NCBI GenBank assembly: GCA_002118135.1
Contig: BDIU01000139.1
Location: 1-64,000 of the forward strand
Direction of reading: 5' to 3'
DNA from: Trebouxia sp. TZW2008
Lineage: Eukaryota; Chlorophyta; Trebouxiophyceae; Trebouxiales; Trebouxiaceae
DNA: 64,000 nucleotides
Of the stretch, positions 1,533 to 63,631 are shown one piece after another. Below the pieces are notes generated by a model. It did no database searches, had not been told where the DNA came from, and saw only the letters and a list, made by a program, of their open reading frames with translations. The translations under genes were made by a program, and so were the position numbers. Each line of letters starts with the position of its first letter. Within the stretch, counting starts at the first letter, position 1.

Positions 1533-3520
1533 CTGACGAGCTGTGATCTGTGCTTCCAGGAAATTCAGCACAGCCGCCAGGGCACTCAATAGCACAGGCA
1601 GGGCTGTAGCCCTGGTCACATGACTGTGTCTTTCGCCTTGATGTACAACATGCTGCTGCAGCATTGTGTGCAGTGTCTGTACAGTGTCAGGTTGAAGCCA
1701 CCCCAGGGCTTCATTGACTAGGGCTGTTGCGGAGCCTGGACTCAGCATGGCCCTTGCTGGCTGCCTGCATCAATCCAGCACAAGCTCGTTGCACTTCTGT
1801 GCTGAGATTGATCTTTTACTGTGCAACAAGACAGACTCCAGTCACGTGACTTGTTCATCAGTTCCTTGTACATTGTGGTGCCGCAACATGGTGCGCAGTG
1901 TCTGTATGTCAGGTTGAAGCCACCCCAGGGCTTCATTGACTAGGGCTGTTGCGGAACCTGGACTCAACACGACTGTAGCTGGCTGCCTGCATCAATACAG
2001 CATGAGCTCACTTGCTTCTGTGCTAAGATTGATGGACTGCAGTGCAATAGGACAGACTCGAGTCACATGATTTGTTCCTCAGTTCCTTGTTATTGATGCC
2101 GCTGGGATAACTCAATGCGCAGTGTCTGTCCAGTGTTAGGTTGAAGCCTCCCCAGGGCTTTGCAGATCCTGGACTCAGCATGGCCCTTGCTGGCCGCCTG
2201 CATCAGAACAGCACAGATGCATTTGCATCTGATGCTATTACTGACCTGTTGCTATGCAAATCATAGAGTGCTTCACAAGCATCTCCCGCTTTGCAACAGA
2301 CAAACTCCAGGACATGGAGCTCAGCGCAGCTGTGGAACCAGGACAGACAAGCAAACTTGGCCTAAACTCAAGACTTGATCGAGTGTACTCGCATGCTGAC
2401 AGCATGCGTGCTTTCATACGACAGACATGGTCACCATACAGCACAACTAAGCAGGTTTTAACATTCTTAAAACTACAAAATAGCCCTGCAGAATGCGTGC
2501 TGTATCCAAAAGACCTCGATGCAAGATATGACAGCAGACAGCAAACAAGCTTTACCTGATGGCATGACGGACCAAGCTTCCTAGTAGCAGGTACGACTGG
2601 CAGCTAGCCTCCAGCTGCAGCTTCTGCAGCAGCTGTGCCTTGTTACTCATGACCTTGCTGCCATGCGATCCCTGCTGCCCCTTCTTCTGCTGCTGCGCCT
2701 GGTGAGTCATTGCCTGGCTGGCAGCTGACTCATCCCGATTGTCATGTTGTGACTCAGACACAGGAGGTGGGTTGGTCTGCAGACGCTGACTAAGGAGCTG
2801 ACTAAGGCTTGAAGAAGATGGGCGGATCAGAAGGCAGCAGATGGCTGAGTAGGCGTCGTCTAAGTGCATGAAGGCTTCATTACGGTCGGCACAGATGCGC
2901 CAGATGTGAAGGGCTTCAACCTGTTGCATGGACATCAAATGGTTGAAGCTGATGTTTCAGGTGTGAAGAAGATGATGCGCCAAATGTACAGGGCTTTAGC
3001 CTGTTATACGCACGTTACCTGCTTGAAATTGATGGATGCGACATGCCTGAAGGTGATGTGTCACATGTGAAGGGCTTTGACCTGTCACATGGACAGCACA
3101 TGCTTGAAATTGATCTATCACACAGACAAAACATGGGTGCAGGTGCCTTGTCAGGTGTGAAGGACTTCAGTCTGTCACATGGCCAACTTGCATCTGAAGT
3201 ATCACATGTCTGAAGTTGATGTGTTACATGTGAAGTGCTTCAAGTTGTCACAGCAAAGTGCTAGGGTCATGTAGCGCCTTGTGTTGCTGAAGCTGAAGTA
3301 TGGGTTTTGGTTTGGAGGCAGGGTCGGATAGTTCTCAAGACAGGAGGGGAAACAGCGGAGTAGGGGTGGAAAAGCCTTGCGCAGGTGATTGTGCAAAGCA
3401 AGCCAGCAAGCTGATGCAAGCACACTCACAGGACCAGTTACAAAGGAAGCTTTGCCTGGCGTGACAGCAGTTGCTGGCAAACATGAAGCTGGTTCTGCTA
3501 CAACAACTTCTGTTTGTAAG
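1533..3520 (-). CDS. probable downstream exons of RPAP1 (uncertain joins)
   Basis: Three minus-strand stretches look coding and follow the confident RPAP1 exons, but I could not fix their splice phases. (1) About 3500-3230, with PVSVLASACWLALHNHL. (2) About 2890-2590, rich in Ser, Gln and Leu, with AFMHLDDAYSAICCLL. (3) About 1745-1533, with ALPVLLSALAAVLNFLEAQ, ending at a good donor (cag|gtgaga). The helical, Leu/Ala-rich character suits the alpha-solenoid C-terminal half of RPAP1. No terminal exon or stop was identified, so the gene probably continues left of the window. They could instead belong to a separate small gene. Confidence 0.4.
1671..2200. repeat. three copies of a 219-bp exon-containing unit
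   Basis: The segment 'aggttgaagccaccccaggg' starts at about 1692, 1911 and (with small changes) 2130, a spacing of 219 bp. On the minus strand the left-most copy is continuous with the coding stretch that ends at the 1533 donor. The two copies at higher coordinates lie upstream in the gene's sense. This matches the acceptor-side pattern seen elsewhere in the window. Confidence 0.8.
2885..3250. repeat. short tandem copies upstream of a putative RPAP1 exon
   Basis: Segments resembling 'agggctt(c/t)aacctgt' plus 'catggac' and 'cttgaa(a/g)ttgatg' recur about five times at roughly 60-90 bp spacing. They lie immediately upstream (minus sense) of the putative exon at 2890-2590. Copies are diverged and of unequal length. 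Confidence 0.6.
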
Positions 3521-3672
3521 GACACTTGATGTGAGAACATTCTCAATGTAAGGACATCGCTATTGGTGACTAATCACTGCATTCAGACAGCATTGGCACC
3601 TCTGAGTATGGACAATTCAACATAGGGACAATTGTGTTGGGAACCAAAGCATTCATTACAATTCAAAGTCAT
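3501..3672. mobile_element. MITE copy, pogo/Tigger-like, decayed
   Basis: Shares the ordered blocks of the best-preserved copy at 54186-54365: 'tttgtaaggacacttgatgt', 'actgcattcagac', 'cctctgagta', 'gggaaccaaagcattcatta'. A TA precedes the left end. Terminal repeats are eroded. It lies in an intron of the RPAP1 gene. Confidence 0.6.
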
Positions 3673-3807
3673 CATACCTACTTTACTGGGTACATTCAAA
3701 ATCAATGCACCTAGTAAAGTAGGTACAATGACTTTATTGTCATTGTAAAGAGAGCCCAGTCTTGACACCAGTGATACAATACATTTGAACAGAAGTGCAA
3801 GTCCCAC

Positions 3808-6800
3808 CTGGAGACTCAGTCTGTGTATGTACGCATCCATGCTTGTGTTGCCCTCAGGTGCCAGGGCTAGAGCCCTTTGTGCATGCATCAAGAGCCCTAC
3901 ATGCATGACACAGAAACCCTGACGCCTCTGTGATATTGTTGGCAATTTGGATTTTGAAATAATATGCTCACATGGCTTGTTTTGGACTTTTGGCTGATCA
4001 TCATGTCCTTTCTTGTATGCAATGACCTCTGTCATGTTAACTCTGGCTTGATTCTGCAAGATGTGAATGATATCAAACTCCATTAGGGCCATGCTTGCTT
4101 TTGTGTGTGAGAGCGCAAAGCAAAACATCAGATGTTACCTGAAGACAAGACTGCCTGAAACAGCTGAGAAGAAGAAGCAGCCAGCAGCCGCACAGTAGCT
4201 AGCGCAGCCGCCAAGTAGCTGCTTTTGTCATCACTTGCTGCGTCAGCTGCAGGGCTCTGGAGAAGCCCCTGCAGGGCTTTGAGGATCCCAGGGCATTGCC
4301 AAATAGCCCTAGCAGCATCAGCACCAGCCCTGGCGTAGGCCTGGAGGATGGCTAACAGAGGGCTGGTAGCTGCTGCTGCAGCTGGTGACCTAAGCAGAAA
4401 GCTGATGCGCTCAAGAACCTGCAGCAGCAGCTGATGAACTAAGCAGAAAGCTGATGCACTCAAGAACCTGCAGCAGCAGCTGATGACCTAAGCAGGAAGC
4501 TGCTGTGCTCTAAAAGCTGCAATTTATGACACATGTAGAATAACACGCACAGACCATCAACTCACAGCAGACATAGCAATAGATGTTACAGGGCACATTG
4601 AGCTCTTGTTTCAAGGACGCTCAGAGGTTATACCTACCAGTCAGGCACCCTGACTGCAAAAAATCACTTCTGTGTGCAGAAAACTTGATGCAAGAGTGTT
4701 TTTCCTGGTAACCAGCGCAGTCATTACAAAGAAAAGTAACTGTGCTCATAATTAATAGGAATGCACAACATACATGTGGAGAGACAAAAGATACCTGCAT
4801 GTCCAACAGGCCTATCAGGGGGTCCAAAGTTCCTGTCTTGCCATCATCTGGGGGCTGTTCCTCAACCAGCCCTGGCCCAAGAGGGGCAGGTGCGGCCTTA
4901 TCTACAGGAGTATTAACCCAAGCTCCCACTGCATGGGGCCTTACTAAATACCTCCAGGGCACAGCTGGACAGCCTGGGCAGACACATACACGCACTGACA
5001 GACTTGACTAAGGCTGTTCCTCACCCAAGCCTGACCAAGGAGGGGCAGTTTCCGCCTTATCTCTAGGAATCATAACCCAAGCCCCCACTGCATGGGGTCT
5101 TACTAAGTACCTCCAGGGCACAGCTGGTCAGCCTGAGCACACACACACATGCGCAATGACAGACTTGACTAGGGCTGTTCCTCAACCGACCTGACCCAAG
5201 AGGGCACACTCAGCTTTACATACAGGAGTACCAAACCAAGCTCCCATTGCATGGGGCTTTACCAAGTACCTCAAGGGCACACAAGGGCAGCCTGCACAGA
5301 CACACACATTGACTGTCAGAGGTGGCAGGGGCTGTTCAATGAGGGCTGTTCACCAGCAGCTCTGTCATCAGGGCCTTTCTGTTGCACACACGAACAGAGA
5401 CATTAGTCTCCAGTGTTTGGGGCTTTGCCAAATCCTTCAGGGCACGGCTGAGCAGAAAAACAAAAGCGCAATAACAATAACAAAAGCAATAACAATTTCA
5501 GGCTTTCATCAGCGGAACATTTGCCTTTTCTTTGAGGCAAAGAGTGATCAGCTGCCTTTGATTGCCAGACACATTCACCTTTGCTTTTAAGCCAGGAAGT
5601 CCAATGAGTCACATCTGGTTCCCTACCTTGGACTGTAAATTCTATTGATTCGTTGTAAAGGAGCAAGAGACGAACACATCCTCACCGCATTTGGGGTTGC
5701 AGTCAGCAGCCGCCCACAGCTCTTCTTCTTCAGGGCCTGGACCCACCAGAACAGCCAGAGCTTCTGCTGCTGCTGTCATCACCGGCAGATGTGAGTCATC
5801 CATCAGTAGTCTCAATACTGTGGTGACCTGGATGTCTTGCACTGCGTACTCCCATACCTCTAGCCATGTCACATGTGCCTGCACAACATGACTGCATCAG
5901 CATGGGCTGCACTACCTGTGAGTCAGCCAGTAATACTTTTAGCGCTATGATGACCTGGATGTCTTGCACTGCATACTCCCATACCTCCAGCTATGTCGCA
6001 TGTGCCTGCATGGCATGCGTTTGCAGTCAAGTCAATGGAAGGCAAACAGCACTCTCAGTACTATACTGTTTTGGATGTTGTGCACTGCAGTTCCTCTCAG
6101 ATAGCCATGTTACAAAGGTGAGTACAGTGTTCACCTCCGATGCCAACATCTCCTGCTCCGTACATGGCAAGTTCACTTGCTGTGTCACAAGAGCTCCTGC
6201 TGCGTTGTGATGCCATGTTGGTCACTCAAGTTTGAGTTAAGCATTCACCTCTGGTGCTGCTGTCTCCTGCACAGTAAACGGCAAGTCCACTTGCCGGCGG
6301 ACCAGAGCTCCTGCTGCGTCATGGTGACTGGGCTGTGGCCGAGCGGCAGTTAGAACAGCACTGATGATGCGCAACGCCAGCACTCTTTGCTTAGGCAGGC
6401 TACTCCGGGTCATGATGCAGGCCTCTTGCAGGGTGTAGCCCTCAGGGGAAGTGCCCTCAGACTGCCTGAACATTGCAGAGAGTGTAGTCTCAGCATGCAC
6501 AATATCAATGCATAAGAGTTTGAAACTCTGGAACTTGCACAGCACTCTTTGCTTGGGCAGGCTGTCATGACGCAGGCCTCTTGCAGGGTGTAGCCCTCTG
6601 GTGAAGTGCCCTCAGACTGCCTGAACAGGGCAGAAGGTAAGAGCCACCCCACAGCATGCAAAGCACAAAGGTTTGAAACCTGAGGTTTGAACAAAGCTGA
6701 ACACGTGTAAAGTTCCAGTGCTCCCCTTGCAGGGTGTAGCCCTCCGCGAAAGTGTGCGCCGCCTGCCTGAACATAGCTGAAAGAGATGTCTCAGCATGCA

Positions 6801-8920
6801 CAGCATGCACAACATGAGAGCTTGAGACTGTGGGTCAACACCTTAGCAAGTCTCTCTGCAGAACCTGCTGATCAGAGCCAGGACCATTGCTTTGTGCAGT
6901 GGCTTCCTTGAGGCCTACGACTCGCCCTTCTAGTGAGAACCTCAGTCTGCTAGGGATGGAACTGACGCCAGCACCAACCAGATGAGGATCATTGCTGTTC
7001 GCTCCTGTGTCACGCTCGGCTGTTGAAGATTGAAGCCGCTGCACAGAGGTACTGTCCTGCTGTCTGGGGCCTGTTTTCCCTGCTGTGCCTGCTGAGACTG
7101 CTGAGCCTCCTTGGATGCTGTGATTGGCAGTGACAGGCTGAAAAGAAGCTGCAGCTTGAAGCTGACCAGAAGCAGCAGGTCTGTTTGACTTGGCAGCAGC
7201 ACGCTTTGCTAAGAAGGCTTGAGCTGAAGGAGAAAGCCTAGACAGCAGCTCCTGCTTTGCTTCCTCTACCTGTGTTGCAAACAGTGAATCTCCACACTTT
7301 CCATTTCAGTAATTGATTCTCTTCAATACTTTCATTTTAGGTAATTTGCATTGGCGCTGACATATTGTGCATTTCATCAACTGCACTGCATCTCCGTGAT
7401 CCATGCTCTCAAATACTCTCAAAAATGTTTTGCATAATACGTGTTGGATATTGAATATTATGTACGGTGATTCATTGATCACAAATGAATTGCTTGGACA
7501 GAGTTGTGCGCAGAAAGGACTTGTACGCATACAGTAAGAATTTGTACACGCAGACTGGCAACTTTGACATACCATGAACAGTACCCAAGCATTGTAGGCA
7601 ATACACTTGCAAGTGTAAAACAGATGGCAGCATACATATCTGCCGAGGCAGTTGTCTGAGAGCATCCCACAGCTGAACATGCGAAGAGATGCAGATGTGC
7701 TTGAACATGAGCCATATCAGTCAGCCCCAGTGATCTGGCCTGTCAAACACTCCTGTTAGTCACTTGTAGAGTCAGCCTTTTTAGTCAGTGCTATGACTCA
7801 CCTCAGCAGGGCTCATGCTGTCCACAAGCTGCCTGTTTTCTTCGTCAATGCGCTGCTTGTCAGCAGGACCCACATCCATACCCATAGTAGGGATGTTTAC
7901 AGATGCAGCCGGGACTGAGTCTTGAGAAGGCTGCTCTGAAACTATGGCAACAGCATTGCCGTTTTGGGTATTGTTGGCTTGCACTGCAGCAGGTGCAGCA
8001 GAAGCTGCAGCTGTTCTTTTGGAATATGTTATGGTTGACGCTGCTGAGGCAGCTGTCTTCGTCTCTGTTGTTTCTGCTGCATCCCTGAGTGATGCTGGTG
8101 GCTGCTTGCGGCTGAGCGCAAACTGCAGCGGCACAGCATTGTCAGCCTTGTTTACAGGCCTTGCAGAACGTTTGGAAAGACTGCTAAATGGAGGCTGTGC
8201 TACACATGATGGCACCATGTGCAATGTGTGCCGGCTGTTTGCTTCCATGTGCTTGTGCTGATGTCATGCGTGATGCTGCAGCATCTGCAAATAGACTGCT
8301 CCGCCAATCCTAAGTTTGGCTGGCAGCTGTTGCTCTCACAAAAGGTCACATAGTCGACAGCTGCATTGTTTGACTCATGCCAAGATCATGCAGACAAGGA
8401 TATTGGCAGTTTTGGCTGCAAGGCTGCAATGACAGTTCTGTAGTAAACATGGTCAAGCCGCATGTACAAGGCAGAGCTATATGCCTCCAAGGCTATTGCC
8501 CATTCTTACCAGCAGTCTGGTATGCACATATGTATGATACCTTGGAAAGCTTTCTGTGAATTGCCTTGGGAAATGCTGTGCCTCCTTTTGGTGGGCTTGG
8601 GGCAGTCACTTGCTCGCTGACAGGCTTTTCTTGCACATCGCTGACAATGCCAAGAATGCCTGGTAAGAGTCCTGCAGAGAATGTTTCAAGGAGTGAGGCA
8701 GATGCACCGCACCCGTATGTTTATGGTCACCGCACTTTGAGGCATGAATGGCACCTTCTGCGGGCTCAGGAGCAGATGTGGGTGCCTGAGTAGGTGGAGC
8801 ATTTGGCTGCTCTGAAGGCTTGCTTGGCGCTCTGGGTGCGCTTGGGCGGATCCGAGTGGCTTTGGCAGCTGGCCGCTGCTGACCAGACAGAAACTCGCTC
8901 TGCAGCGCATTGACCGTTTT
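3808..8920 (-). CDS. RPAP1: RPAP1/MINIYO, RNA polymerase II-associated protein 1 (partial)
   Basis: RPAP1 (plant MINIYO/IYO) helps assemble and import RNA polymerase II and promotes elongation. Nine exons join in phase on the minus strand: 8920-8755, 8659-8541, 8257-7802, 7269-6842, 6465-6249, 5878-5686, 4973-4795, 4418-4139, 3896-3808. The first holds the family's N-terminal ALQSEFLSG motif. The RPAP1_N signature (ENRQLVDSMSPAEVEEAKQE, then LLSRLSPSAQAFL) spans the join of exons 3 and 4. Next come LRFSLEG and the RPAP1_C signature GYTLQEACIMTRSSLPKQRV, in which an Arg codon is split across the intron. The remainder is Leu/Ala-rich helical sequence. The initiating exon, upstream of 8920, was not found and the C-terminus is uncertain. 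Several exons are preceded by tandem copies of their own 5' ends. Identification rests on two family signatures in the right order. Confidence 0.88.
4419..4515. repeat. 53-bp tandem copies of an RPAP1 exon acceptor
   Basis: The junction at 4418 (ctgctgcag|gttcttgagc on the minus strand) and its flanks recur about twice more upstream at ~53-bp spacing, up to 4515. The unit reads 'ctcaagaacctgcagcagcagctgatga' on the plus strand. These are acceptor-side copies upstream of the intact exon. Confidence 0.85.
4630..4743. mobile_element. MITE copy, truncated
   Basis: The right half matches the 3' half of the 54186-54365 element: 'tttttcctggtaaccagcgcagtcattacaaag' against 'gtttttcatggtacccaatgcagtcattat'. 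It ends in a degraded aagtaactg terminus. The left half is barely recognisable. It lies in an RPAP1 intron. Confidence 0.5.
4974..5450. repeat. ~150-bp tandem copies of RPAP1 exon 4973-4795
   Basis: The block with 'aagctcccactgcatggggc' and 'acctccagggcacagctgg' occurs in the intact exon, then again near 5040-5140 and 5180-5300. A remnant lies near 5420-5450. All extra copies are upstream in gene sense and include the acceptor and the 5' part of the exon. Copies carry substitutions and small indels and are not obviously functional. Confidence 0.9.
5456..5510. repeat. AAYAAC-rich simple sequence
   Basis: A-rich stretch with 'aataacaataac' and 'aaaagcaataac' in an RPAP1 intron. No coding or structural meaning is apparent. 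Confidence 0.7.
5935..6135. repeat. tandem copies of RPAP1 exon 5878-5686 acceptor side
   Basis: The block 'gacctggatgtcttgcactgc(g/a)tactcccatacctc' of the exon recurs at about 5950-6010. A weaker copy lies at 6062-6130 ('ttttggatgttgtgcactgcag'). Both are upstream in gene sense and both include the acceptor flank. Confidence 0.85.
6540..6790. repeat. two extra copies of the RPAP1_C exon 5' end
   Basis: Besides the intact exon at 6465-6249, the acceptor plus the codons for EGYTLQE recur near 6650-6590 and 6790-6725. The nearer copy still reads SEGTSPEGYTLQEA and keeps its ttcag acceptor. The farther one reads TFAEGYTLQG. Neither continues into a complete exon. Confidence 0.9.
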
Positions 8921-9985: not shown

Positions 9986-10019
9986 CATGTGATTGAAAGC
10001 TTTGATGCATCACACATCA

Positions 10020-11740: not shown

Positions 11741-13858
11741 TCAGGTCCAGACCCAGCTGCATGAATGTAAATGCAAATGCACACGCAAGAGACCTGCTGG
11801 AGTGTGCAGAGGTAGAAGTTGGAGCAAGCCTTTGCATTTTGCAGAGCGTGAGACATCAAGACGGATGTATGTTGCAATCATGCACATCAGGATATGCAGC
11901 CAATTTGCAGAACAGCAGCCGCCTTGCAGGCGCTCGACCATGAATGCACCATCATACTCAGTTAAAAAGTCAGGTCCAATTGCATGCACAAGGCAAAGCT
12001 GAATACAGACAGCGGCTCTCATCATCAGACAGAACCTGGCAGGTTTGTTCTTGAAGGTGTCCTGCCCGCCAACCAAAATCAGGATAGCTGCAGCTGTGCC
12101 CTGTCGCGGTTGCACAACAGCATTCACCCAGTAGCTCTTCACCAGAGCATTGCTTTGGCACCGAAGCCCAAGCAGTGCTAGCGCCACCAGCAGCGGCTCA
12201 CAAGGTCGAGGCATAGCCTTCTCAATTGGCCTGGGACCTAGCATTTGCAGCCTGTGCTGCATCTGAGACCATGCCATTTGTTGATCTTGTGAGGTTGCTA
12301 GTACCTCCAGTCTGTCCAGTGCTGGATACATGCGGCCTGTGTTTCCTGCTGAGAGCTTAGATGGAACCTGAAGACCCAGCTTCTCAAGGCTGTGTAGCAG
12401 CTGACTGTACACGTCAAGTGTGAGCAGACCTAGAACAGCTAATGCCCAAGCTGTGACTGACACGTCCTCAGGTTGCAGTTGTCTATGGTGTAAAAGCTGA
12501 TTCGTCATGACTTGTGCTGCTTCAGGCTTGATCTTGGCTCTCAGAACAGCGCAGGTAAACAGCATGAGACTGGTGTCAACAGGCGCCGGCTGGTGCTTCT
12601 GACTTTTGCACAGGTACACCATCTTGAACAGCATGACTTGGAGCAGTTTGCCGGACGGCATATGCTTGAAATCTTGCAAGGCCCAAGCAAAGCTGGAGAC
12701 GTCCTGACCGTTCACATGCTTTGCAGTGACTGGAGATTTCAGCACTCCTAGGAAGCAAGCACAGATGCGGTCCATGAGCTGAGCTGATGGCTGAGCTCTG
12801 AGTTTGGCCAGTGCAAATGCTGTGCTGGACAGCGATTGACCGTCCCAAATTGCCATGGATGCTGTCTCCAGGTGCGTTTGCATCGTCTTGAGCAATTGGC
12901 CTTGACAGGGATTCAACTGGAGGTCAACACATGCTAGCATGGTGGATGAAACGGACTGACCAGTGGCTGCATGTATGTCAGACATGAAACGGAGACCTAG
13001 AGCGTCCACTACACCAGGAGATAAGCTGTCGGGGTTCACTCCGAGTTGAGCAAACACCCAGAAAGCATTGCTGGCAATTCTGGTGCCAGCCTGAGGCATG
13101 ACCCTCTGCAGGCGCAGCAGCATTCTCAGCAGGAAGGCTTCAAGATCCTGCTGTGCATGCTGGTCATGCTGTGCACGCTGGGAGGGATTGGTTTGAATTG
13201 CTTGCCAGATCCTTGCTGTGCCGTAGAGTGCTCCGCTGATGTGCTTGGGGTCCAGTCTATGGCTTGTGTTGTCGAAGTGACCGTCAATGCGTCTGGCATA
13301 CAGCTGCATGATGTGTGCAGCATCTGTGTTGCGTGCGGCTTCTTCTGCTCTCTGCCACTGGTTTTTGATATTGATCTCTCGAGGCACATATTGCAGTAAT
13401 GCTGGGCAGGCATCTGACTCTGGCTGTAACTTGAGCGTCTGCAGAAAGGAGAGAACTGTGCCATGGAACTGGATTGAGTGGTGCACGGTTGCAAACCAAG
13501 ACGTCAGCGCTGTCAGAGATGACTGGTAGGCATGTACCTGGCGCTTTGCATTGTCGATTTGACGATGCCAGGAGGTATGCTGAGGATTTTGTCCATTGAG
13601 CTGAGGCTGAGCCTGTGTCTCAAGGCCCTGCAGCAATAATTTCTACTTTGATATTGGTCGAGCTGCTACGGGATGCAAAACGATTACAGCAAGTTGAGCA
13701 CTAACCTGTTTCAGCGATTTCGGAGAGGTCTGTGTGGCAGCTTCCTCTTTCTCAAGGGATCGGACAGAGCTTGCATGCGCACGTGGTGTCCTCGAATTAG
13801 CAGCGCCTTGGCACCTGCGAAGCAAGGACCCGTATTTGTGACAAAAGGTGCTATGCAT
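11741..13858 (-). CDS. OPR (octotricopeptide repeat) protein, organelle RNA-binding
   Basis: Two exons join in phase: 13858-13706 (51 codons from ATG) and 13627-11741. The 72-bp intron between them has clean aacag|gttagt and ctgcag|gg borders. The product is about 679 residues. The first exon is Arg/Ser-rich, poor in acidic residues near its start, and looks like an organelle targeting peptide. The body carries repeated helical motifs around an A-(F/W)-A-L core, including ASNAFWVFAQLGVNPD, SSTAFALAKLRAQPSAQL, VSSFAWALQDFKHMP and VSVTAWALAVLGL. This is the pattern of green-algal OPR/FASTK-like proteins, which bind organellar transcripts. No C-terminal RAP domain is evident. The target RNA cannot be read from sequence. 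Confidence 0.8.
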
Positions 13859-13861
13859 CAA

Positions 13862-15570: not shown

Positions 15571-15574
15571 ACCT

Positions 15575-41645: not shown

Positions 41646-41732
41646 AGTGAGTGAGTGAGTGAGTGAGTGAGTGAGTGAGTGAGTGAGTGAGTGAGTGAGT
41701 GAGTGAGTGAGTGAGTGAGTGAGTGAGTGAGA
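41646..41732. repeat. tetranucleotide microsatellite (AGTG)n
   Basis: About 22 uninterrupted copies of agtg. It lies just outside the last exon of the neighbouring minus-strand gene. Confidence 0.98.
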
Positions 41733-50500: not shown

Positions 50501-51868
50501 TTTGCCATTGAAACTAGTCACAGGGCGGCGCACGCCACTCACCGTTGACAAGATCTGGAAGTGACTGTCAGCATATGAGCAAGCGCCCAACAGCTTGCAA
50601 GCCGTGGCATAGATAAAGTTTCCAGTCTCCATCATAACATGATACATGTTTGCTTGATCAAGCCAGTTGTAGATCAAAGCTTGGTCTAGGTAGTCAATAT
50701 GGGTGTCAGAGTCCCATGGTAGATTCAGTGGGTGGACTATAGACACATGCTCTGGGAGTATTGCTTCACCATAAGGGTGCCACCACATGTGCCATCCCTC
50801 CCTGACATTGGGTATGCTTATGTTCTCTGCAGAGCACAGATACAGGGTGTCAGATTGCAGGGTAGATTCATTGGAACACTTACTGTCACAGACTGTGGAA
50901 GCATTGCTTTGCCATATGGGTGCCACCACATGTGGGATGGCCATCCCTGACATTGAGTATGCTTACGTCCCCTACACGGCATATCAGTATGAGGGCTTCC
51001 TATTGATGCTTCCCTTTATCGGACTGTCATAAAGCACAAGCATAGCCATTGGCAGCTGCATTTGCTGTATGCAGGACAGCCAACAGCAAGCACTTGCAGG
51101 TGCCACCAGGAAACAGCAGAAATGCGCATTGCGCAAGCTTGCAAGTTGCGTATTGGGCAGCTCTGCTGCTTTCTAGTAGCATGTGCAGCTTGCTTGCTGT
51201 TTGCAAGAGCAGCTAAGGCCTGATGAGCAGAAGTTGATTGAGATTCATCATGCTGTCGCAAGCAAGCTGAAGCATGAAAGTGATTGTGTAAAGGTGCTGC
51301 ACTCCTTCTGCGACTAAGCTTCACACTATGGCCTATGTGCCTTTGACTATGCTCTGCTACGCCGTGCGGTTGTGATGGTGTACCTGACAACATAGGCTGC
51401 AAAAGCTCACCTGTTGTGATGTAGTAGAACTGCTTCTGCCATAGCACCAGATCAAAAAACAAGCAAGTAAGTCCCAGGTGACCAGTGCCGTTGCACTGCA
51501 GTGGCATTCACCGCTTTACGATGACGCTGAATGAAACCGTGCGGCTAGGTTCAGAAGGACTTGACACTGATCTTAGGCGTAAGGCCGCGCTGGAAGGCAT
51601 CGCGTCAAATGCTCATTAGTCGCAGGTGTACCGTATGCCTCGTTGTGGTCACGAGTTCGTATTCGGGTAGACTTTCTGCAACGGAGTGTTTCTGCTGCAG
51701 TCAAACATGCGAATCCTGACTTCCCATAATGTCGCGGCAGCGATGCACTTGGCGATGTGTCACAATGTTTACTTTCAGCTGGCCCCTGAATGTGAGTCGC
51801 TGCGCATGCGAGCCTGCCGCAGTCCACATTAGACACGCGTATAGCACTACTCGTGCGGTTGCCGCCAT
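44585..51868 (-). CDS. GT61-like (DUF563) glycosyltransferase
   Basis: Eight exons join in phase: 51868-51773, 51495-51411, 50826-50543, 49295-49185, 48551-48269, 47390-47275, 46763-46536, 44788-44585; 468 residues. The N-terminus (ATARVVLYACLMWTAAGSHA) is a signal peptide or anchor, so the protein should enter the secretory pathway. Exon 2 has GHLGLTCLFFDLVL; exon 5 ends with VVIVQRLLSRGRSMLNILEV. Exon 6 encodes HSHIYILIHGAAMALYMFLP and NAAIIE. The HGA motif followed by a hydrophobic FLP stretch is the hallmark of GT61 enzymes, which include plant xylosyl- and arabinosyltransferases and EOGT. Substrate is unknown; wall or glycoprotein glycosylation in the Golgi is likely. Several exons have tandem copies of their ends in the introns. 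Confidence 0.82.
47040..47235. repeat. two downstream copies of GT61 exon 6 donor side
   Basis: The exon 6 end ('cctcaatgattgctgcattccttggtaggaacatgtacaaggccattgc' on the plus strand at 47275) is copied near 47155-47220 and 47040-47100. Both share 'aacatgtacaa(a/g)gccattgcagcagctatgcatcag'. Confidence 0.9.
47425..47600. mobile_element. MITE copy
   Basis: Preceded by TA. Contains 'tttgtaaggatactcaatgtaaggac', 'ccactgcattctgactgcggtg', 'tgaggacaatttgaaataagg' and 'ggggaccaaagcagttgtttcaaagaga'. Termini resemble the 54186-54365 element. It lies in a GT61 intron, upstream of exon 6. Confidence 0.75.
47970..48200. repeat. two downstream copies of GT61 exon 5 donor side
   Basis: The exon 5 end ('cttcagtgctgaacacttggacatgagcccctgt' at 48269, plus strand) recurs near 47978 and 48119 at ~145-bp spacing, each with a cac|ctt donor. 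Confidence 0.9.
48615..48830. repeat. upstream copies of GT61 exon 5 acceptor side
   Basis: 'attctgcatgt(a/g)agggac(t/a)gaatccca' through 'cc(a/g)cc(a/t)cctg' is duplicated at about 48640-48735. A remnant near 48780-48825 shares 'cgcattgcaacccaatgcc'. These sit upstream of the intact exon in gene sense. Confidence 0.9.
48835..49160. repeat. downstream copies of GT61 exon 4 donor side
   Basis: 'aagctaggctgaccttgttgtc' at the exon 4 donor (49174) recurs at 49090. Weaker copies of the 'gatccagaggggcag' block lie near 49000 and 48860. Confidence 0.8.
49335..49605. repeat. six ~46-bp copies of GT61 exon 4 acceptor side
   Basis: The junction text 'cttccccaaacttgaagtaaccctgaaaacaag' (exon 4 start at 49295, plus strand) recurs near 49345, 49388, 49435, 49478, 49523 and 49570. 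Each copy is followed by a variant of 'gcaagcacactctgttg'. All lie upstream in gene sense. Confidence 0.93.
49801..50503. repeat. three downstream copies of GT61 exon 3 donor side
   Basis: Besides the intact exon ending at 50543, near-identical 3' parts end at 50320 and 50097; a more diverged one ends at 49805. All keep frame and the acg|gtgagt donor. The two nearest encode ALIYNWLDQANMYHVMMETG and NFIYATACKLLGACSYAASH, as the parental exon does with one change. Spacing is about 210-290 bp. Confidence 0.95.
50890..50960. repeat. upstream copy of GT61 exon 3 acceptor side
   Basis: 'tgggtgccaccacatgtgggatggccatccctgacattgagtatgctta' parallels 50774-50820 inside the intact exon. It lies upstream in gene sense. 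Confidence 0.85.
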
Positions 51869-52851: not shown

Positions 52852-55800
52852 TCACCGCCCGACAGCAGTTACCCTATGGTGAGGATTGCTTCTGGACCTA
52901 GGCTGTGAATCCAACATCTTGCCTTGCCTCACAGTGTGAACACCACGACTGCTACCACTGTTCTGACTGCTGCTTTGGCTGCTGCTGTGACTGCTGCTAG
53001 CGTCATCACCAAATGTGAGACCGGTGTGATCTGCTGTGTGATCAGCTGCAGCATGGTGTAGTGCATTCCCTGTAGCATCACTGAGAGAAGCATCGTCTGC
53101 GGCACGGTCAGCTGTGGTATGACTAACTTCACTGATACTGGCGCTGCTGCTTCTGCCTGAAATGTCATTGGCCAGGGCGTCTGAAGAAGAGGAGTGCAGA
53201 CCATCTGAAGCAGAAGAGGAGCGGAGGCTGTCTGCTTCCTGCAGCTGGTGTAGGGTTCCCGGCATGATGAGGGTCTGCGCCCGCCGAGCAGCTGGCACTG
53301 CAAAAGCAGATTGTGTGTCATTGTATGGCAAAAGATTCAAAAATGTTCAGCATTATGCGAATACATCATGAGTTTTGTCAAAGCTGTGTATAATACATTA
53401 TGCTAACCAAGCGAAGTCAACAGAAGTCAAGGTGGCTTGACTACCTTGAGCTCTGAAAGATCCTGGCAGTGTGCACAGCAGGCAAAGCACATGAGAAGTT
53501 GACAGCGCGCTTTGCATGCTTTGACATACCTGCCTTCCAGGATCTGACCAGACGTCTACCCTCAGCAAATCTGGCAGAATGCACAGCTGCAGGCAAAGGA
53601 CGTTTGAGCTTGGCACTCATGCTTTGCATGCTTTGACATACCTGGCTTGCAAGTTGCAACTGGGGAGCGGCTTTGTGCCACCTGCGCAGCGTGCTCAGCA
53701 GCAGGAGCAATGACGTTCTTGAAGACGCCGTCACTGCTAGAAACTTGAATGGCTTGGCAGTGGATGCAGCCCTGGAGGAACTCGTCTGCTACGTACGGCG
53801 CAAAGCCCCACTGCCAGAAGATCACACCTGCAAAGGCCAGTTTCTGTCAGTCATCAATCTTCTCAGACTGCATTTGTTGGATGCAAAGTTTTGCAGACAC
53901 AAAGGCAGGAAAGAAAGTCACAAGGCAAGAAAGGACAAGAGCCTGGCGACAAGATTTCATTGCCAGAAGATCTCTCCTGCACAGCCTAAGCATCTGTCAG
54001 CTGTCAAGCTCAAAAAGCAGATGGTTTCCTCAAAGACAACTGAGCTGACTTGTGCTCAGTCAAACACTGAAGACTGAGCACAGGGCAGCTCAAAACAGGG
54101 CAGAACTGCCACATGGAAGCAGGGTAGGAATGTCGACCAGTCAACGCACCAGAGCGTAGCGGTTAGATTGTGCTGTTGCCTGCTACAGTGATCTCTCGAT
54201 ACAAGGATGCTTAATATAAGGAAATTCTTGATGTAAGGACAATGCAAATGGAAACCAAGCACTGCAGTCTGACTACAGTGATAGTTCTGATTCTGAGTAA
54301 GAACAATTTGATGTAAGGATGTTTTTCATGGTACCCAATGCAGTCATTATATCAAGAGATTACTGTACAAAGCATAGCGTGCCCTGACCTTTGAGAGCGC
54401 CATCAGCATCAAGTGACTCCTGAAGCTGCTGGTACACCTTCCTGTAGAAGGGCCCTCTGATTGAGGTGATGTTAGCGTTTGCCCCACTCTCCAAATGCAC
54501 CTCCTTCCCAAACTCCTCAATCATGAAAGGCTTGCCCATGGCCGCTGCATCAGCTGCATGCTGTTTGATCCAGGCCTCTAGGAAGTCCAGATCCCATGTC
54601 TGTAGCAGCACACAATTATTCACAGGCAGAGACAAAGATGAGGAGAAACCTCACAGATCCATGCTCCTTGCCCATCTTCTCAATGCCTGAAACAACACAC
54701 AATGTTTGAGGTGCGGAGACAAGAACAAGACGTTCCCTAGATGCACTTTGTCCTCAATCATGAAAGGCTTGCCCATGGCCGCTGCATCTGCTGCATGCTG
54801 CTTGATCCAGGCCTCGAGCCATTCTAGGTGTCAGGTCTGCATGAACACAGAGCAGGTGAGAAATGCATGAAATGGCAAGATCTTGACAGATGTGCTTCCT
54901 TGCCAAAGTCATCAATCATGAAAGGCTTGCCCCTTGCTGCAGTATCAGCTGCATGCTGCTTGACGCAGGCCTCTAGACAGCAACCCATGTCTACAGCAAC
55001 AGGTGATGCGTCACACCAAGAGGCAACCACAGCAACCCTCCAAGCACAGCTTCTTTTCAGACTGCTGAATCACAAAGAGCTTGCTCATGGCTGCTGCGTC
55101 AGCTGCTTGCCGCTTGGTTCACGCCTCTAGGCAATCCGGGTCCAATAACTGTATGCAAAGTCGATTGCTGAGAATTGGACCAACATGAGTGTTTTGACCA
55201 TACCTGTTGCCTTGGCTGCTGCTTAGACAAAACATGCTGGAAGTAGCAGAGTGAATGGCTTTAAAGCACATGTATAAATGCATTGTATTGCAACCAGGTC
55301 AGTGTCACCTTTATGCAGCATCAAGTCCCCGACAAAGCCCTTTTGTGCTCTGTTGCCCTTCTTTTGCGTAACAAGCCAGGTATGGGCAACAGGAAAGACA
55401 ATGGCATTCGAAATTTGACTAATGGCAATATGCCAACGCAAAGCACCACCATTGCATTATGCTCAATACTTCTCTTCAGTGCAGCTGCTTACCTCCCAGT
55501 TGTCAGGCCAAATATGGGCAGCAGCGAAGTCGATGGCCTTGGAGGCGTGGTTAGCAATGAAGTCCTGCCCGGTAAGACTAGCCCAGCCAGTGCCAGGGTT
55601 GACTGATTCCCCGGGACTGCCCTTGGTGTAGAAGCCCTCCTCACCCACTGTAATCATGTGGTTGGGGTCTGCCTTCTTGAGATACTTGGACATCTCATCA
55701 ATCCAGGACTGCAGAGCAACACTGATGTCAGCAAACTCCTCACAAACATTGACCGTTAGCTTCGCAACTGAATGAATGTAGAAAAGATAGCGCAGCACTG

Positions 55801-58280
55801 ACAACAAACATCAATTGAGCCCAATGTTGCCAGGGCAGCAGTCACAGCAGGGCATGACCATGAGTAATAGTGTGAAAGCTGACAATCAACAACTGTCCAT
55901 TTGTGGATGCTCAAGCTATTGCATGCATCCTGACCTGAACTTTCTTGGCAAACTCAGGCTGGCAGCTGAAAGAGGTGTCAAGGACACAGAAGCAGTCATA
56001 GCGCAGCTCATTCCATGCAACGTCAACCAGCATGTGCATATCGCGCACGCATCCTGACCTGAACCTTCTTGGCACACTCAGGCCAACAGCTGACGTAGCT
56101 GTCACGCACAGGGTCAAATCTGGGAAGCAGTCATGGCGCAACCGTTGCAGTTCATCATCAGACAGACAACAGCATGTCAAGACACAAGAGTACAGCTAAG
56201 TCCCTACCTGAACTTTCTTGGCACACTCAGGCCGACAGCTGACGTAGCTGTCACGCACAGGAATGAAATCTGGGAAGCAGTCACAGCGCGGCTCGTTCAT
56301 AAGGTCCCACGCAAAGATGGTTGGGTCATCCTTGTATAGCCTGTTGTTGATGGTGTTGCGCCTGTTGACCATGGCATCGATGTGGTTCTTGAATAGCTGC
56401 TTCACGTCTGGATCTGTGAAGAAGGGGTCATGCCCTTCTGCTCCTGCCCATTGAATATACTGCAAAAGGCAGCACTTTCTTGGTGGTGGCCGCAGCTGCC
56501 AAGCAGCAGCAGCAAACATTGAGTAACAGCAGGTACGAGCAACTGGCAGCATCCCAAGTGCAGCAGGAAGCGCAAAAGCAAAGCATAACAAGCAACTGCA
56601 GGCAGGCACTGTTGGTCAATGACTGACTGCCCATGATGTGTTTTGGGGAGGGCCAGAATCACTCAGCAATGGCCACAGCTGCTGAGCAGTGGCAACAAGC
56701 AAACCCAGCGCTCACAACTAGAAGCCATGACAATGCCTTTGCCCAAGTGGCAGCATTTCAAGCACAGCAGCAAGATTTAGGGCAACAGCAATTTGTTGCT
56801 GCTGCTGCTCATTGCAAAAGGCAAGTGAACTTCTTTGGTGTCGCTGCATCAGCCACTTTTGACGGCAAACACAATGCAGATGCAGCGCCACAACACCCAC
56901 CTGGGTTTTGCTGTCAGCATTGTCCCAATTGTTGACCAGCGTAAGCAGTAGCCTGACGCCGTATTTGGATGCCTCATCCAGTATGTAGTCCAATGCCTGG
57001 AACGCATGCTCGCTATACTTGCCTGCACAATGCATACAACACAAGGTGCTCAGACAGGATCCTGCTTTCGCTGCAGCAAATTGAATGGCTGCATGTAATG
57101 CATGGTTTGCAGCTACAGCATGTTGGTGCATATGCCAAACAACATTGGCAGAGAGATGCTGTATATGTCAATCCATCATGAACGCAGCAAGTCTGAGTAG
57201 TTACACAGGCAGACTTGCTAAGCTTGTTTGGCTTGACAGTATATGGCATATACAGGAAGCTGATATGGCACATCTCCTGGGTGCAGCAGCCAAGAGCAGT
57301 TGCCCACTATGCAAGGCCAGGAACGCATGGATGCTGAGCACACCTGCTTTGAGCTGGAGGGGAAAGCTGCTGTCAACACCATGCGCGAAAGACCGCAAAA
57401 CGTTGAGCTTGTTGGCAGCTGCTGTAGCGAGGGTCCACTGCACAACATCTGCAACTCCATTTTCCAACATGACAGGCTTGGACTTCACTTTGCTGGCTGC
57501 TACCTCCATTAGTTGCCACCTGCAAGATTCACAGTTTGTCAATTAGTAAACTCTGTTTGTAATGACTGCTTTGGTTGCCCACAAAAATGTCCTTACAGTG
57601 AAATGTCACTGTGTCACTTTATTATTAGGAAATCAGAAGTACCACTGAAGTCAGAATGCAGTGGTTGGTTCCCGTTTGCATTGTCCTTACATCAAGAATG
57701 TCATTACCTCGAGTGTCCTTATATCGAGAGATGAATGTAGCACAAGGACTCTGAGTCGTACTGCAGAGCTGGAATGCGGCGCAAACAGTCTGAGCAAAGC
57801 TGCACAGCTTGAAAGCACCATTGATCAAACACGACAAGGAGTTGCACATGGCTTGAGAGCAGTCTGAATGCTTCACTTATCAGGAACTTTTCAATGGGGA
57901 ACCAATTGCAACTGCAGCAAACACTCAGCGGCACAGGCAGTCTGGGTGCTCACTTGCGTGCTGCACTAAAGTGCAATGTCCAGGCAAACTCAACAGGTAG
58001 CTGCACATGGGTTGACAGCATTCTCTTTGCTTCAGATGTGAGTAGACTCAGCTGGCAGATATCAACAAACTCAGCTGGCAAGCAAGCGCTGTAACAAAGG
58101 GAAAGTGAGCAGTTGTACTCACGTGTTGAGCCCACTTGGGATGAACTCGTTGCAGTCCTCATCAACAAAGCGGCCCTTGTCCGCTCTGATGAAACCACCT
58201 CCCGCATGCTGAGCCAAAGCTGCGCTGAAGTGTAGACACAATACTACAAGCAAGCCTACACGCCAACCACCCCGGCGCAT
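52852..58280 (-). CDS. secreted endo-beta-1,4-mannanase, GH5_7, with Ser/His-rich tail
   Basis: Hydrolyses internal beta-1,4-mannosyl bonds of mannans. Eight exons join in phase: 58280-58123, 57519-57344, 57022-56901, 56459-56208, 55708-55493, 54599-54389, 53827-53642, 53297-52852; 588 residues. The start RRGGWRVGLLVVLCLHFSAA is a signal peptide. GH5_7 landmarks follow in order: FIRADKGRFVDEDC, GVRLLLTLVNNW, DPTIFAWDLMNEPRCD (acid/base Glu in NEP), DPNHMITVGEEGFY, GKPFMIEEFGK (nucleophile, second Glu of EEFG) and GVIFWQWGFAP. The last exon adds about 149 residues rich in Ser, His, Ala and Asp with no catalytic motif, absent from typical family members. It may be a linker or wall-binding tail. 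Several exons have tandem junction copies in adjacent introns. Confidence 0.92.
53440..53641. repeat. downstream copies of mannanase exon 7 donor side
   Basis: 'catgctttgacatacctg' at the true donor (53642) recurs near 53526-53532 with similar flanks ('ggcagaatgcacagctgcaggcaaagga' against 'ggcagtgtgcacagcaggcaaagcac'). Spacing is about 115 bp. Confidence 0.8.
54186..54365. mobile_element. best-preserved MITE copy, pogo/Tigger-like, TA target duplication
   Basis: 180 bp. Left end CAGTGATCTCTCGATACAAG; right end complement CAGTAATCTCTTGATATAAT. The element is flanked by TA on both sides (54184-54185 and 54366-54367). CAGT termini with a TA duplication fit Tc1/mariner pogo/Tigger-type elements. 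It contains internal 'gatgtaagga' repeats. No transposase, so it is non-autonomous. It sits in a mannanase intron, 23 bp from exon 6. Confidence 0.85.
54730..55145. repeat. three upstream copies of mannanase exon 6 acceptor side
   Basis: The exon block 'tcatgaaaggcttgcccatggccgctgcatc(a/t)gctgcatgct' and the following 'tgatccaggcctc' recur at about 54758-54835, 54916-54990 and 55062-55135. Spacing is about 150 bp. The nearest copy still reads as the active-site region but has lost its donor end. Confidence 0.93.
55920..56150. repeat. two downstream copies of mannanase exon 4 donor side
   Basis: 'cctgaacttcttggcacactcaggc(c/t)' to 'gggaagcagtca(t/c)' of the exon end (56208) is copied near 56057-56140 and 55930-56005. 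The latter is more diverged. Confidence 0.92.
57543..57738. mobile_element. MITE copy, reverse orientation
   Basis: Reverse complement of the same family: 'tgcattgtccttacatcaagaat', 'gtccttatatcgagagat' at the right end and 'agtaaactctgtttgtaatgactgc' at the left. It lies in the mannanase first intron. Confidence 0.75.
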
Positions 58281-61190: not shown

Positions 61191-61194
61191 ATCT

Positions 61195-61707
61195 TCTGGG
61201 GTGGCGTTTGCAGGCCACATGGGCGGTGCAGCACCATTGCCATTTTGAATGACTTCTAGAGCTGTGTTGTTTGCTGCAAGAGAGTTTGCAATCCTGGCTT
61301 GCTCTCTCCTGTCACTGCAAAGGACACGAGTTCTGAAAGGGACTGTCTTGGAAATTACAGGAACAGCAGCAGCATGTAGCACTGCGTGAAAGCTTGTGTT
61401 TATACCTGTGCTGCATGCCGTCCAGTATTCACTGCTGCAATAGCTGTAGCTGCTGCTGTAGCTGCTGCTGGTGCTGCTGCAGCTGTTGCTGTATCTGCTG
61501 CTGGTGCTGCTCCAGCTGTTGCGGCAGCTGTTGCTGCGTCTGCTGCTGCATTTGCTGCTGAATCTGCTGCTGATGCTGCTGCAGTTGCTGGGTCAGCACA
61601 GCAGCAGTGAGCGGAGGGTGATCTGCTACGCGCTGGAACTGCTCACGGCTGGCGCGCATGCTGTCAGCTAGAGCAACATAGTCGGGGGCTGGTCGAGGTG
61701 CAGCCAT
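61195..61707 (-). CDS. Gln-rich protein N-terminus, unidentified
   Basis: Exon 61707-61433 starts at ATG (APRPAPDYVALADSMRASRE). It then runs into a long Gln-rich tract of CAG/CTG-type codons and ends cagca|gtgaat. Exon two, from 61314 after a tttgcag acceptor, joins in phase. It contains RREQARIANSLAANNTALEV and WPANATPEDVRQMPWDQVG; its end is uncertain. The remainder may include the fragment at 59741-59965. It is divergent from VIPP1, with about 515 bp between the start codons. Family not recognised. Confidence 0.5.
61440..61612. repeat. CTG/CAG-rich low-complexity tract
   Basis: Imperfect ctgctg(c/t)tgctg repeats encode a polyglutamine-rich segment on the minus strand, interrupted by Leu, His, Met and Pro codons. 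Confidence 0.92.
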
Positions 61708-61933
61708 CTCGTCACGGGCTGCCGTGCTACTTCGGGTTGCAACGGCAGTGCAGACAAAACTCGAAACAAGTGGTCTCAGAGAATGCGTCGCAGCGCCACT
61801 CACACGGTCCAGCCGATTGCACCATACTAGCACTAACTCCGCGCGTTGACGAACTTTCCAATTATGTAAAGCCTCCGCGGTAATCCTTGATCGTTCTGCA
61901 AACTGGATCGGAGTCAGCAGTCAGCAAGGTACC

Positions 61934-61942
61934 TATATATAA
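61934..61942 (+). promoter_or_regulatory. TATA box, probable VIPP1 promoter
   Basis: TATATATAA lies in the divergent intergenic region, about 280 bp before the VIPP1 ATG. That would place a start site near 61970 with a long 5'UTR. The same region may also drive the minus-strand Gln-rich gene. Confidence 0.45.
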
Positions 61943-62222
61943 GCCAAGCATGGTGTAGCTAGCTTTGTTGCAGCAGAAGAAGACTGCAAGCTTCGCGCAC
62001 CCAGCTGAAGCTACGTTTAGCATCCGATCCGACCTGGCGCACAAACGAAGGAAGTTTGAGCAGGTTTCGCGAGGAACATTCCGAACAGTTGGTAGAGACA
62101 GCATATCGGCAGTCGCGACAAGACACAGATCCGCTTACTTCACGGTCATTCAATAAACGACAACCCAAGCCACCGTCCAACTCGACCCCGTCCGCGCAGG
62201 TCAAAGACAGTACAGCACCGAC

Positions 62223-63631
62223 ATGTCTGCAACTTGTATGCACTCCGCACTGCAGGCAAGACCAGTCAAATGTCAGACTAGCAGACGCAGCGTTGCGCAG
62301 CCAACATGCGCGCAAGCGCCCCCACATACTCGGATTGCCGGGAAGCACTTGTTGACAGGTCAGTCACAAAGCCATGCTTCCGACAAGAATAGCGCTAGAA
62401 GCATACTGCATGCTGGTTGTATCGTCAAAGCGCATCCACCTGAATGCGCAATGCTGCTGTGGTCGAGCGCAGCATCGTTTGTCGTTGTACGGCTCGGATG
62501 CAGGTTTCTGTGTCGACGTTCAGGTGGCCCGCTGAGCAGTCAACAAAATCGCCACTTCCGGTCAAGCAAGTCAACGACAACCAGTGCCGGTCTTGGTGAT
62601 CGCTTTCTGAGGGTTGGGAAAGGCTACACCTTTTTCTACGGAGATGCAGCAGGTGACCGAAGATCTTTCTGATCACAGGCTTTGTTGTAATGCAAAAGCG
62701 CTACTGTGCATTAAGGCATGCAATCGCTGTCTGAAAGCTTGATTTCTACCACAAATGATGCAGCAGGATTTGGCAATAATTGCAAAAGTCTGCACTGCGT
62801 CAGGATCTCAACCTGCCAGGACAATCCACACAGGTCTGCTTATTGCAACATAGTGACTAGGGTCAAAACATGTGTGTGGCAAAGGTTTACTCCGTGCTTG
62901 TAGCCAAACAGCTAGAGGATCCAAGAAGAATGCTGGACCAGGCTGTGTCTGAGATGAAGGAGGATCTCATCAAAATGCGTCAGGCCTCTGCCGAAGTCAT
63001 GTCTACACAAAAGATGCTAGAGAGCAAGTACACCCAGGCGCAAGCTTCAGCAGTAAGTTTTTGGTCCTTGTGAAGGGATTGCAGTATCGTTCTGTGCGGC
63101 TGCAGCATTTAGGACAGAACTCAGACAATGACAACGGCAGTTTAGTGTGCAACCCCCATCATGCTCCCTGACATGTCAAGCAGCTGTTGTGTTTGCAGAG
63201 ATGTCAAATGCATGTCATGCAACTGCCAACTTGTATGGCGTACAAGATCAGCAAGGTTGGCACATTGCGTCCTTACTGAAATTTGCAATGCTTGTGCGAC
63301 AGGGCAAGTGTAGGAGCTTGTGCATGGCCAACAATACAGCCCAAGCTCTGGACAAGGGCAAACAACAGCTAGCTGTGGACTCACTTGCTGCATGGTACAA
63401 CAGCTACACACATTTACTTGACTGAGCTGCAGAGTGAGTAACGGCTCTTTGACATTATGCTGTGCAGGATCAATGGTACAGGCGTGCTCAGCTGGCTTTG
63501 GATAAGGGTGAAGAAGAGCTAGCCAGGGACGCTCTAAGGAGGAAGAAGAGCTTCTCTGACACTGCAGCCATGCTGAAGAAGCAGCTGGATCACCACACAA
63601 GAGCGACCAGTCAGCTCACCACCAACATCAG
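62223..63631 (+). CDS. VIPP1: VIPP1/IM30 (PspA family), plastid membrane-remodelling protein, partial
   Basis: VIPP1 is an ESCRT-III-like protein that forms rods and rings and maintains thylakoid membranes. Three exons join in phase: 62223-62652, 62904-63052, 63468-63631. The gene continues beyond the window. The long first exon is Ser/Arg/Ala-rich, as a chloroplast transit peptide should be, and ends in a helix-1-like segment (LGDRFLRVGKG). Exon 2 has LEDPRRMLDQAVSEMKEDLI and KMRQASAEVMSTQKMLESKY. Exon 3 has WYRRAQLALDKGEEELARDA, RRKKSFSDTAAMLKKQLDHH. These are the diagnostic coiled-coil helices of the PspA/VIPP1 family. Which of several in-frame ATGs in exon 1 is used is uncertain. Helix 1 is unusual, with GYTFFYGD before the join. 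Confidence 0.88.
63310..63425 (+). repeat. decayed upstream copy of VIPP1 exon 3
   Basis: The plus-strand reading AQALDKGKQQLAVDSLAAWY matches exon 3's AQLALDKGEEELARDALRRK in order and spacing. It lies about 140 bp upstream of the intact exon and has no usable donor. Confidence 0.7.

Follow-up and report, generated by a model that had tools for sequence, protein, structure and literature searches.

We analyzed a 64,000-nucleotide stretch of the genome of Trebouxia sp. TZW2008, a green alga belonging to a genus of lichen photobionts; this stretch (positions 1 to 64,000 of contig BDIU01000139.1, assembly GCA_002118135.1) is referred to as the window. The assembly comprises 68.5 Mb in 527 contigs, and Trebouxia genomes of similar size and GC content have already been published (PMC12712428, PMC11523091). 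Four genes in the window, UTP25, RPAP1, GT61, and a mannanase, have introns that contain partial copies of the adjoining exon ends. Here we describe these copies, their occurrence elsewhere in the genome, and their probable role in intron growth.

Gene models were put together by reading the sequence and were then checked by translation. UTP25 (17478-38102, plus strand) has 10 exons. The other three genes are on the minus strand: GT61 (7 exons, with the Pfam domain Glyco_transf_61), a GH5-type mannanase (7 exons; PF00150 is present in its relatives), and RPAP1, for which 8 of its exons were used. All of these exons join in frame via GT-AG introns. For RPAP1, the domain RPAP1_C scores above the cut-off, as does RPAP1_N once the preceding exon is added. 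The GT61 model begins with an exon other than the gene's first, and the mannanase model is without the C-terminal part.

Protein comparisons for three of the four genes indicate that the copies leave no trace in the encoded proteins. Over residues 300-720, UTP25 is 84-87% identical to the proteins of Trebouxia C0004, C0009, and C0010 and 80-88% identical to that of C0005 (best among the named matches). The mannanase is 90% identical to its counterpart in Trebouxia lynnae. Alignments cover the mannanase, GT61, and UTP25. Across 427 residues the mannanase aligns with three Trebouxia relatives without a gap, and there is no repeated segment in its exons. GT61 shows a few short gaps inside exons and no repeated segment. 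UTP25 was judged only over its conserved part (approximately residues 250-700), where no copy-derived segment was found, because roughly the N-terminal quarter is variable and some models from relatives are truncated. The figures for two relatives, P0001 (601 aa from 3474 nt) and P0122 (462 aa from 1700 nt), suggest that these sequences derive from cDNA. UTP25 relatives have three extra residues between exons 8 and 9, and the window encodes them if the donor lies at 29714; the exon 8 donor was therefore set 9 nt further downstream, at that position. Junction counts were computed with the earlier donor, and the single downstream copy of this junction is found with either one.

The curated set comprises 32 exons and 60 splice junctions (30 acceptors and 30 donors). 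Each junction was used as the center of a 90-nt query that was searched against 3 kb in each direction with a score of at least 38. At least one copy was found at 25 of the 60 junctions (15 of 30 acceptors and 10 of 30 donors), and the placement of the copies relative to the intact exon is strictly polar. Specifically, 31 acceptor-side copies lie upstream and none downstream, and 18 donor-side copies lie downstream and none upstream. A sequence-only reading of the window had proposed this polarity after checking about 18 exon ends, and it holds over the full set of junctions. The same curated targets, searched as reverse complements for a control, gave 0 matches. The junction itself is included in 26 of the acceptor copies and 14 of the donor copies. 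For 22 of the 49 copies, the mirror position on the wrong side of the exon is non-coding and thus free to hold a copy, and all 22 are empty. In the curated genes this argues against copies dropped at random nearby, and dispersed local insertion was rejected on these grounds.

In RPAP1, acceptor copies lie upstream of the intact exons r1 (1533-1764; two copies, 1942-2030 and 2154-2215), rg (2556-2920; copies at 2974-3034 and 3055-3120), re (4139-4418; 4464-4505), rd (4795-4973; 5088-5179 and 5248-5336), rc (5686-5878; 5961-6010), and rb (6249-6465; 6576-6634 and 6723-6802). A tandem array with a period of 159 spans 4852-5309 at exon rd. Exon rb, which overlaps the RPAP1_C match, also has a donor copy downstream (6119-6179).

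In UTP25, as in GT61 and the mannanase, the exons concerned are likewise intact. Six acceptor copies lie upstream of UTP25 exon 3 (19422-19575) within 18678-19351, with an array of period 103 at 19143-19453, and five lie upstream of exon 8 (29573-29714, with the corrected donor) within 28623-29469; a sixth copy for exon 8, near 29017, was seen by eye only. Single or paired acceptor copies precede exon 6 (23478-23570; copy at 23336-23386) and exon 9 (37012-37223; 36721-36807 and 36848-36935). Donor copies follow exon 4 (20578-20840; 21041-21120, in which GT has become GC, and 21129-21191), exon 7 (27937-28139; 28281-28339, with a repeat of period 180 at 27986-28331), exon 8 (30028-30080), and exon 9 (37279-37336, in which GT has become GA). 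Large tandem arrays are also present deep in UTP25 introns, at 24386-27232, where no exon part was recognized, and at 30621-33806 (periods 286, 141, and 331). Within the first of these, positions 26835-26935 are by eye unlike the surrounding repeat units.

In GT61, exon g1 (50543-50826) has an acceptor copy upstream (50925-50976) and three donor copies downstream (50275-50364, 50090-50141, and 49799-49849). Exon g2 (49185-49295) has acceptor copies at 49429-49473 and 49552-49629, the latter with its AG lost, and donor copies at 49085-49111, 48952-49016, and 48822-48878. An acceptor copy (48687-48752) and two donor copies (48074-48163 and 47976-48020) flank exon g3 (48269-48551), and donor copies at 47140-47199 and 47037-47083 follow exon g4 (47275-47390). 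For the mannanase, donor copies of exon m3 (56208-56459) were found at 56053-56103 and 55929-55969, acceptor copies of exon m5 (54389-54599) at 54792-54839 and 54950-55001, and a weak acceptor copy of exon m6 (53682-53827) at 53958-54000 (score 40 versus a threshold of 38).

The polarity extends beyond the window. We sampled 25 random 10-kb stretches (250 kb) with 293 predicted exons, each at least 45 nt long and called identically by self-trained order-2 and order-3 models. Each model recovers 24 of the 32 curated exons exactly, judged with the earlier end of UTP25 exon 8; they replaced an order-5 Markov gene finder that was overfitted to the window genes and undercalled elsewhere. Before filtering, 117 acceptor matches lay upstream and 26 downstream, 72 donor matches lay downstream and 25 upstream, and the reverse-complement control gave 2 matches. 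Many of the contrary matches were traced to short predicted exons that resemble fragments. A direction-blind filter removed 23 of the 293 exons, those with at least 80% of their length inside one local copy. With the filter (the control was computed before it only), 85 acceptor matches were upstream and 4 downstream, and 54 donor matches were downstream and 3 upstream, at 253 junctions of each kind. Copies were found at 41 of the 253 predicted acceptors and 26 of the 253 predicted donors, and 58 of 138 mirror positions are non-coding.

Local repeats in general are mostly direct. Direct repeats outnumber inverted ones by 138 to 5 across six 10-kb window pieces and by 165 to 11 in 20 random stretches, 19 of which contain local direct repeats. 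Both the polarity and the excess of direct repeats occur in random stretches, which supports a genome-wide phenomenon. Coverage is higher in the window (18,342 of 60,000 bases examined, versus 28,110 of 200,000 in the 20 random stretches), so that the window shows in concentrated form what the sample shows throughout. Local direct repeats make up 48% of the non-exon bases and 28% of the exon bases of the curated genes; the corresponding values for the 25 random stretches are 15% and 14%.

Self-comparison of the window places its repeats in clusters at approximately 0.06-0.8, 1.6-6.8, 18.7-37.3, 42.6-43.1, 47.0-51.0, and 53.5-56.3 kb, and finds no local repeats between 7.3 and 18.6 kb. That repeat-free part includes a 633-aa open frame on the minus strand (11741-13642) with no Pfam match. 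A further array of local direct repeats (62-807; periods 192, 380, and 573), outside the curated exons, is found where the window begins. Two perfect microsatellites are also present, AGCATGT repeated 12.7 times (1089-1177) and AGTG repeated 21.5 times (41646-41731).

The repeat units are short and mostly adjacent. For 184 elementary repeats from the window and the 25 random stretches, the median period is 162 bp (quartiles 129 and 208), and several arrays were identified as tandem by Tandem Repeats Finder (TRF). The ratio of aligned length to offset has a median of 0.77 and is at least 0.5 in 74% of the 184. Identity ranges from 65 to more than 95%, with a peak at 75-85%, and lies mostly between 70 and 90%. 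Four tandem stretches were tested against the 68.5-Mb assembly in a search that skips very common words, and each matched its own locus alone. Overall, the copies are local and direct, in most cases adjacent to one another, and occur throughout the genome sample; those tested are specific to their locus. At junctions they have the features of tandem duplication, in that they are head-to-tail and their units span the intron-exon boundary.

Introns with copies are longer than those without. The medians are 540 versus 365 nt for acceptor-side copies (p=0.0004) and 655 versus 395 nt for donor-side copies (p=7.5e-5). Together with the alignments of UTP25, the mannanase, and GT61, which are free of copy-derived segments, these lengths support the earlier proposal that the intron lengthens while the protein stays unchanged. 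The curated genes hold 47 repeat regions. Of these, 25 are confined to introns and 22 end in an exon, compared with 10.8 expected at random placement; junctions are not the sole target of duplication. No region includes an entire exon (6.7 expected), nor is any located within one (0.8 expected).

We consider it probable, at roughly 85%, that frequent short head-to-tail duplications in and around Trebouxia genes, ongoing or active until recently, lengthen introns and leave the protein unchanged. If a unit spans an acceptor, the product would read intron-exon5'-intron-exon5'-rest; a unit that spans a donor would give the mirror image. The junction of the intact exon would be the one spliced, and the fragment would turn into intron without change to the mRNA. 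A full exon copy would add an exon and hence be removed, and units that repeat a whole exon or lie inside one are presumably eliminated by selection, as their count of 0 of 47 in the curated genes suggests. More tentatively, a fragment with only an acceptor or only a donor may be skipped for want of a partner site, as in exon definition. A unit size of about 160 bp would fit Okazaki fragments or the spacing of nucleosomes, although this is speculation.

The polarity would follow from exon integrity and tandem geometry. When a head-to-tail duplication ends within an exon, the truncated copy must come to lie outside, with the intact exon at the far edge. The polarity is thus what is expected from adjacency plus an intact exon, with no need for an extra rule or preference, and it is not separate evidence of selection. 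The sequence-only reading had explained it by tandem duplication with only one arrangement kept in the mRNA. The first part of this, head-to-tail duplication across junctions, is supported.

Several observations weigh against this explanation or parts of it. In about a quarter of the repeat pairs the alignment covers under half of the offset, so for these adjacency is deduced. Wrong polarity was found in 7 of the 146 matches in the random stretches, 4 of them from two predicted exons (46 and 66 nt) and one a repeat within a 339-nt predicted exon. In the same stretches, 37 of 132 regions hold a whole predicted exon, versus 38.4 expected, and repeat coverage of predicted exons (0.14) is close to that of other DNA (0.15); false exons called on copies probably account for these findings, although this is unproven. 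Units that span junctions exceed random placement (22 versus 10.8), an excess that could arise simply because exon parts decay more slowly and stay detectable for longer. Acceptor AGs are kept above the expectation for neutral debris. Regarding exon definition, a donor-like GT lies within 400 nt of 76 of 106 acceptor copies, compared with 234 of 283 intact exons. Finally, young copies are few, with 10 of the 184 repeats at 90% identity or more and 80 at 80-90%. A steady process should leave more, and the earlier impression of a continuous process is therefore doubtful. The deficit could reflect either slowed duplication, removal of young copies, or their merging in the assembly.

Other origins for the copies are much less probable. 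They could be ordinary exons, serving as alternative cassettes or encoding repeats, and some are indeed called as exons by a gene finder trained on this DNA. Moreover, intact exon and copy differ least at codon positions 1 and 2 (0.112 and 0.090) and most at position 3 (0.215; intron part, 0.158), and neighboring copies differ in the same order (0.170, 0.125, and 0.246 at positions 1, 2, and 3; intron part, 0.190). Part of this contrast is expected if the intact exon is under constraint. The excess at position 3 over the intron part (0.215 versus 0.158) is above the prediction for a simple neutral copy, and uneven mutability is the sole explanation we offer for it. However, in the 124 copies for which 24 or more exon bases align, 120 indels in the exon parts break the frame and 11 keep it, and 21 of 3205 codons are stops. 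The dominance of frame-breaking indels implies that these exon parts are not maintained as coding sequence, and the suggestive codon-position contrast is outweighed by the frameshifts as an argument for coding constraint on the copies. The fragments also lack one of the two parental splice sites, and alignments of related Trebouxia proteins run through the curated exons without meeting a repeated segment. A whole exon, as copied with both splice sites in known exon duplication, is contained in 0 of 47 curated regions; in the random stretches 37 regions hold a predicted exon (38.4 expected). An exonic role is very improbable. Misassembly, which could be suspected in an assembly split into 527 contigs, is harder still to credit given that divergence between copy and intact exon is about 9-22%, depending on site class, too high for misassembled duplicates, and that 19 of 20 random stretches contain local direct repeats. 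Insertion by transposon or introner activity is just as hard to credit. Introners are dispersed elements that affect introns genome-wide. A dispersed repeat of about 170 bp does occur in the same part of the window, in both orientations (3499-3672, 43355-43455, 47423-47591, 54203-54349, and 57557-57721); by appearance only it resembles a miniature inverted-repeat transposable element (MITE) or a short interspersed nuclear element (SINE), and 40 of its matches were scored out of 896 candidates in the genome. The tandem stretches behave differently. The four that were tested do not recur as one sequence at many unrelated loci, as an introner would, and the stretches carry gene-specific exon parts or gene-specific intron arrays.

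Two further alternatives accept tandem duplication and differ in where it acts or what it produces. Duplication may be targeted to splice junctions, for example via transcription or R-loops, and not uniform. The excess of exon-ending regions in the curated genes, and of regions ending in predicted exons in the random stretches (68 versus 41.9 expected), favors targeting. However, slower divergence of exon parts keeps junction copies visible for longer and large arrays sit deep in UTP25 introns, and we regard targeting as a possibility, albeit an unlikely one. The acceptor copies may alternatively be functional, as alternative, regulatory, or stepwise 3' splice sites with their AG under selection. 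Among junction-spanning copies, AG is kept in 87 of 92 at acceptors and GT in 40 of 49 at donors; the controls are 377/484 for exonic AG, 152/189 for exonic CAG, 72/111 for intronic AG, and 165/248 for exonic GT. Since local alignments might stop at a lost AG, copies were also counted by their intron flank (12 or 20 nt) irrespective of the dinucleotide, which gave 67/70 and 58/62 for AG and 30/38 and 27/34 for GT. For these flank-based AG counts, Fisher p values against the exonic AG and CAG controls range from 9e-5 to 0.009. In a control with a constrained intact partner, codon positions 1+2 of the curated exons, 517 of 622 were kept (83%). The AG excess has no counterpart in donor copies, in which GT retention is in line with neutral copies. 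It is present in the sample but modest and suggestive only. Array copies are not independent, and shared history at one junction overstates significance; counted by junction, all AGs are kept at 41 of 44 and 33 of 37. Many copies nonetheless resemble usable sites: 53 of the 92 acceptor copies and 23 of the 49 donor copies have scores higher than the lower quartile for real sites. The best copy that keeps its dinucleotide outscores the real site at 21 of the 50 acceptor junctions and 7 of the 31 donor junctions. Real sites are better on average; they exceed the mean copy score at 34 of the 50 acceptors and 17 of the 31 donors. The AG/GT signature of recursive splicing is mostly missing, as a zero-length recursive site needs to start with GT and just 11 of the 92 acceptor copies do so, and the frequent frame-breaking indels (120 versus 11 in frame) also argue against function. 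We thus think it improbable that tandem duplication builds arrays of 3' splice sites used for stepwise removal or regulation of long introns while the exon fragments decay. Were such arrays used, the growth of introns would be coupled to the multiplication of splice sites in a single process that is partly adaptive.

Long introns are usually attributed to transposons. Here, short tandem duplication is a visible and countable source of intron sequence, with local direct repeats at 48% of non-exon bases in the curated genes and 15% in the random stretches. By our preferred explanation, gene lengthening in this lichen-forming green alga leaves many decoy splice sites while the proteins stay constant. 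It also provides a natural experiment, with many junctions at which a real splice site stands beside its copies and the protein is unchanged. With near-identical sites side by side, spliceosome choice and exon definition in green algae become directly testable.

The sequence-only reading knew of no named mechanism for this mode of intron growth. That was too strong, as tandem duplication across splice sites is a recognized route of intron gain (PMC4974935, PMC3443670). What is known is tandem duplication as a source of new introns; what appears to be new is the same process as a genome-wide mode of intron growth. In titles and the beginnings of abstracts of the open-licence papers that our searches brought up, we found no report of genome-wide intron lengthening by tandem duplication with exon fragments on a fixed side. 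The main texts of two Trebouxia genome papers use the word "intron" once and "tandem" not at all (PMC12712428) or neither word (PMC11523091), and the genome paper for the related photobiont Asterochloris mentions large introns without the word "tandem" in the parts considered (PMC6652019).

Intron gain by tandem genomic duplication is the closest known system. The potato case crosses an intron-exon boundary (PMC4974935), and a review table covers 188 intron-gain events across species (PMC3443670, which cites Gao and Lynch 2009 and Hellsten et al. 2011). In such gains the duplication likewise crosses the boundary, and splice signals are inherited from the parent junction; they create a new intron in isolated cases (PMC3443670). 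In Trebouxia, by contrast, existing introns appear to lengthen and the fragments appear to be discarded. Variable internal tandem repeats at human exon-intron boundaries elongate both exons and introns, and like the Trebouxia repeats they straddle junctions (PMC2812944). The human examples are minisatellites with units of about 30 bp in recent primate segmental duplications, with 27 intron modifications (PMC2812944). The Trebouxia repeats, in contrast, have diverged units about 160 bp long and occur across the genome. A boundary minisatellite of the human type has a short unit in a near-identical, polymorphic array; the Trebouxia repeats have a median period of 162 bp and identities mostly of 70-90%. 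Among green algae, Chlamydomonas and Volvox likewise have tandem repeats enriched in introns and near junctions (PMC3887541). The abundant motifs there are dinucleotides such as GT/AC, and the parts of that study considered here describe no exon fragments or polarity (PMC3887541). Finally, introners and the Trebouxia duplications have in common an effect on introns genome-wide, but introners are dispersed, whereas the tested Trebouxia copies are confined to their own locus.

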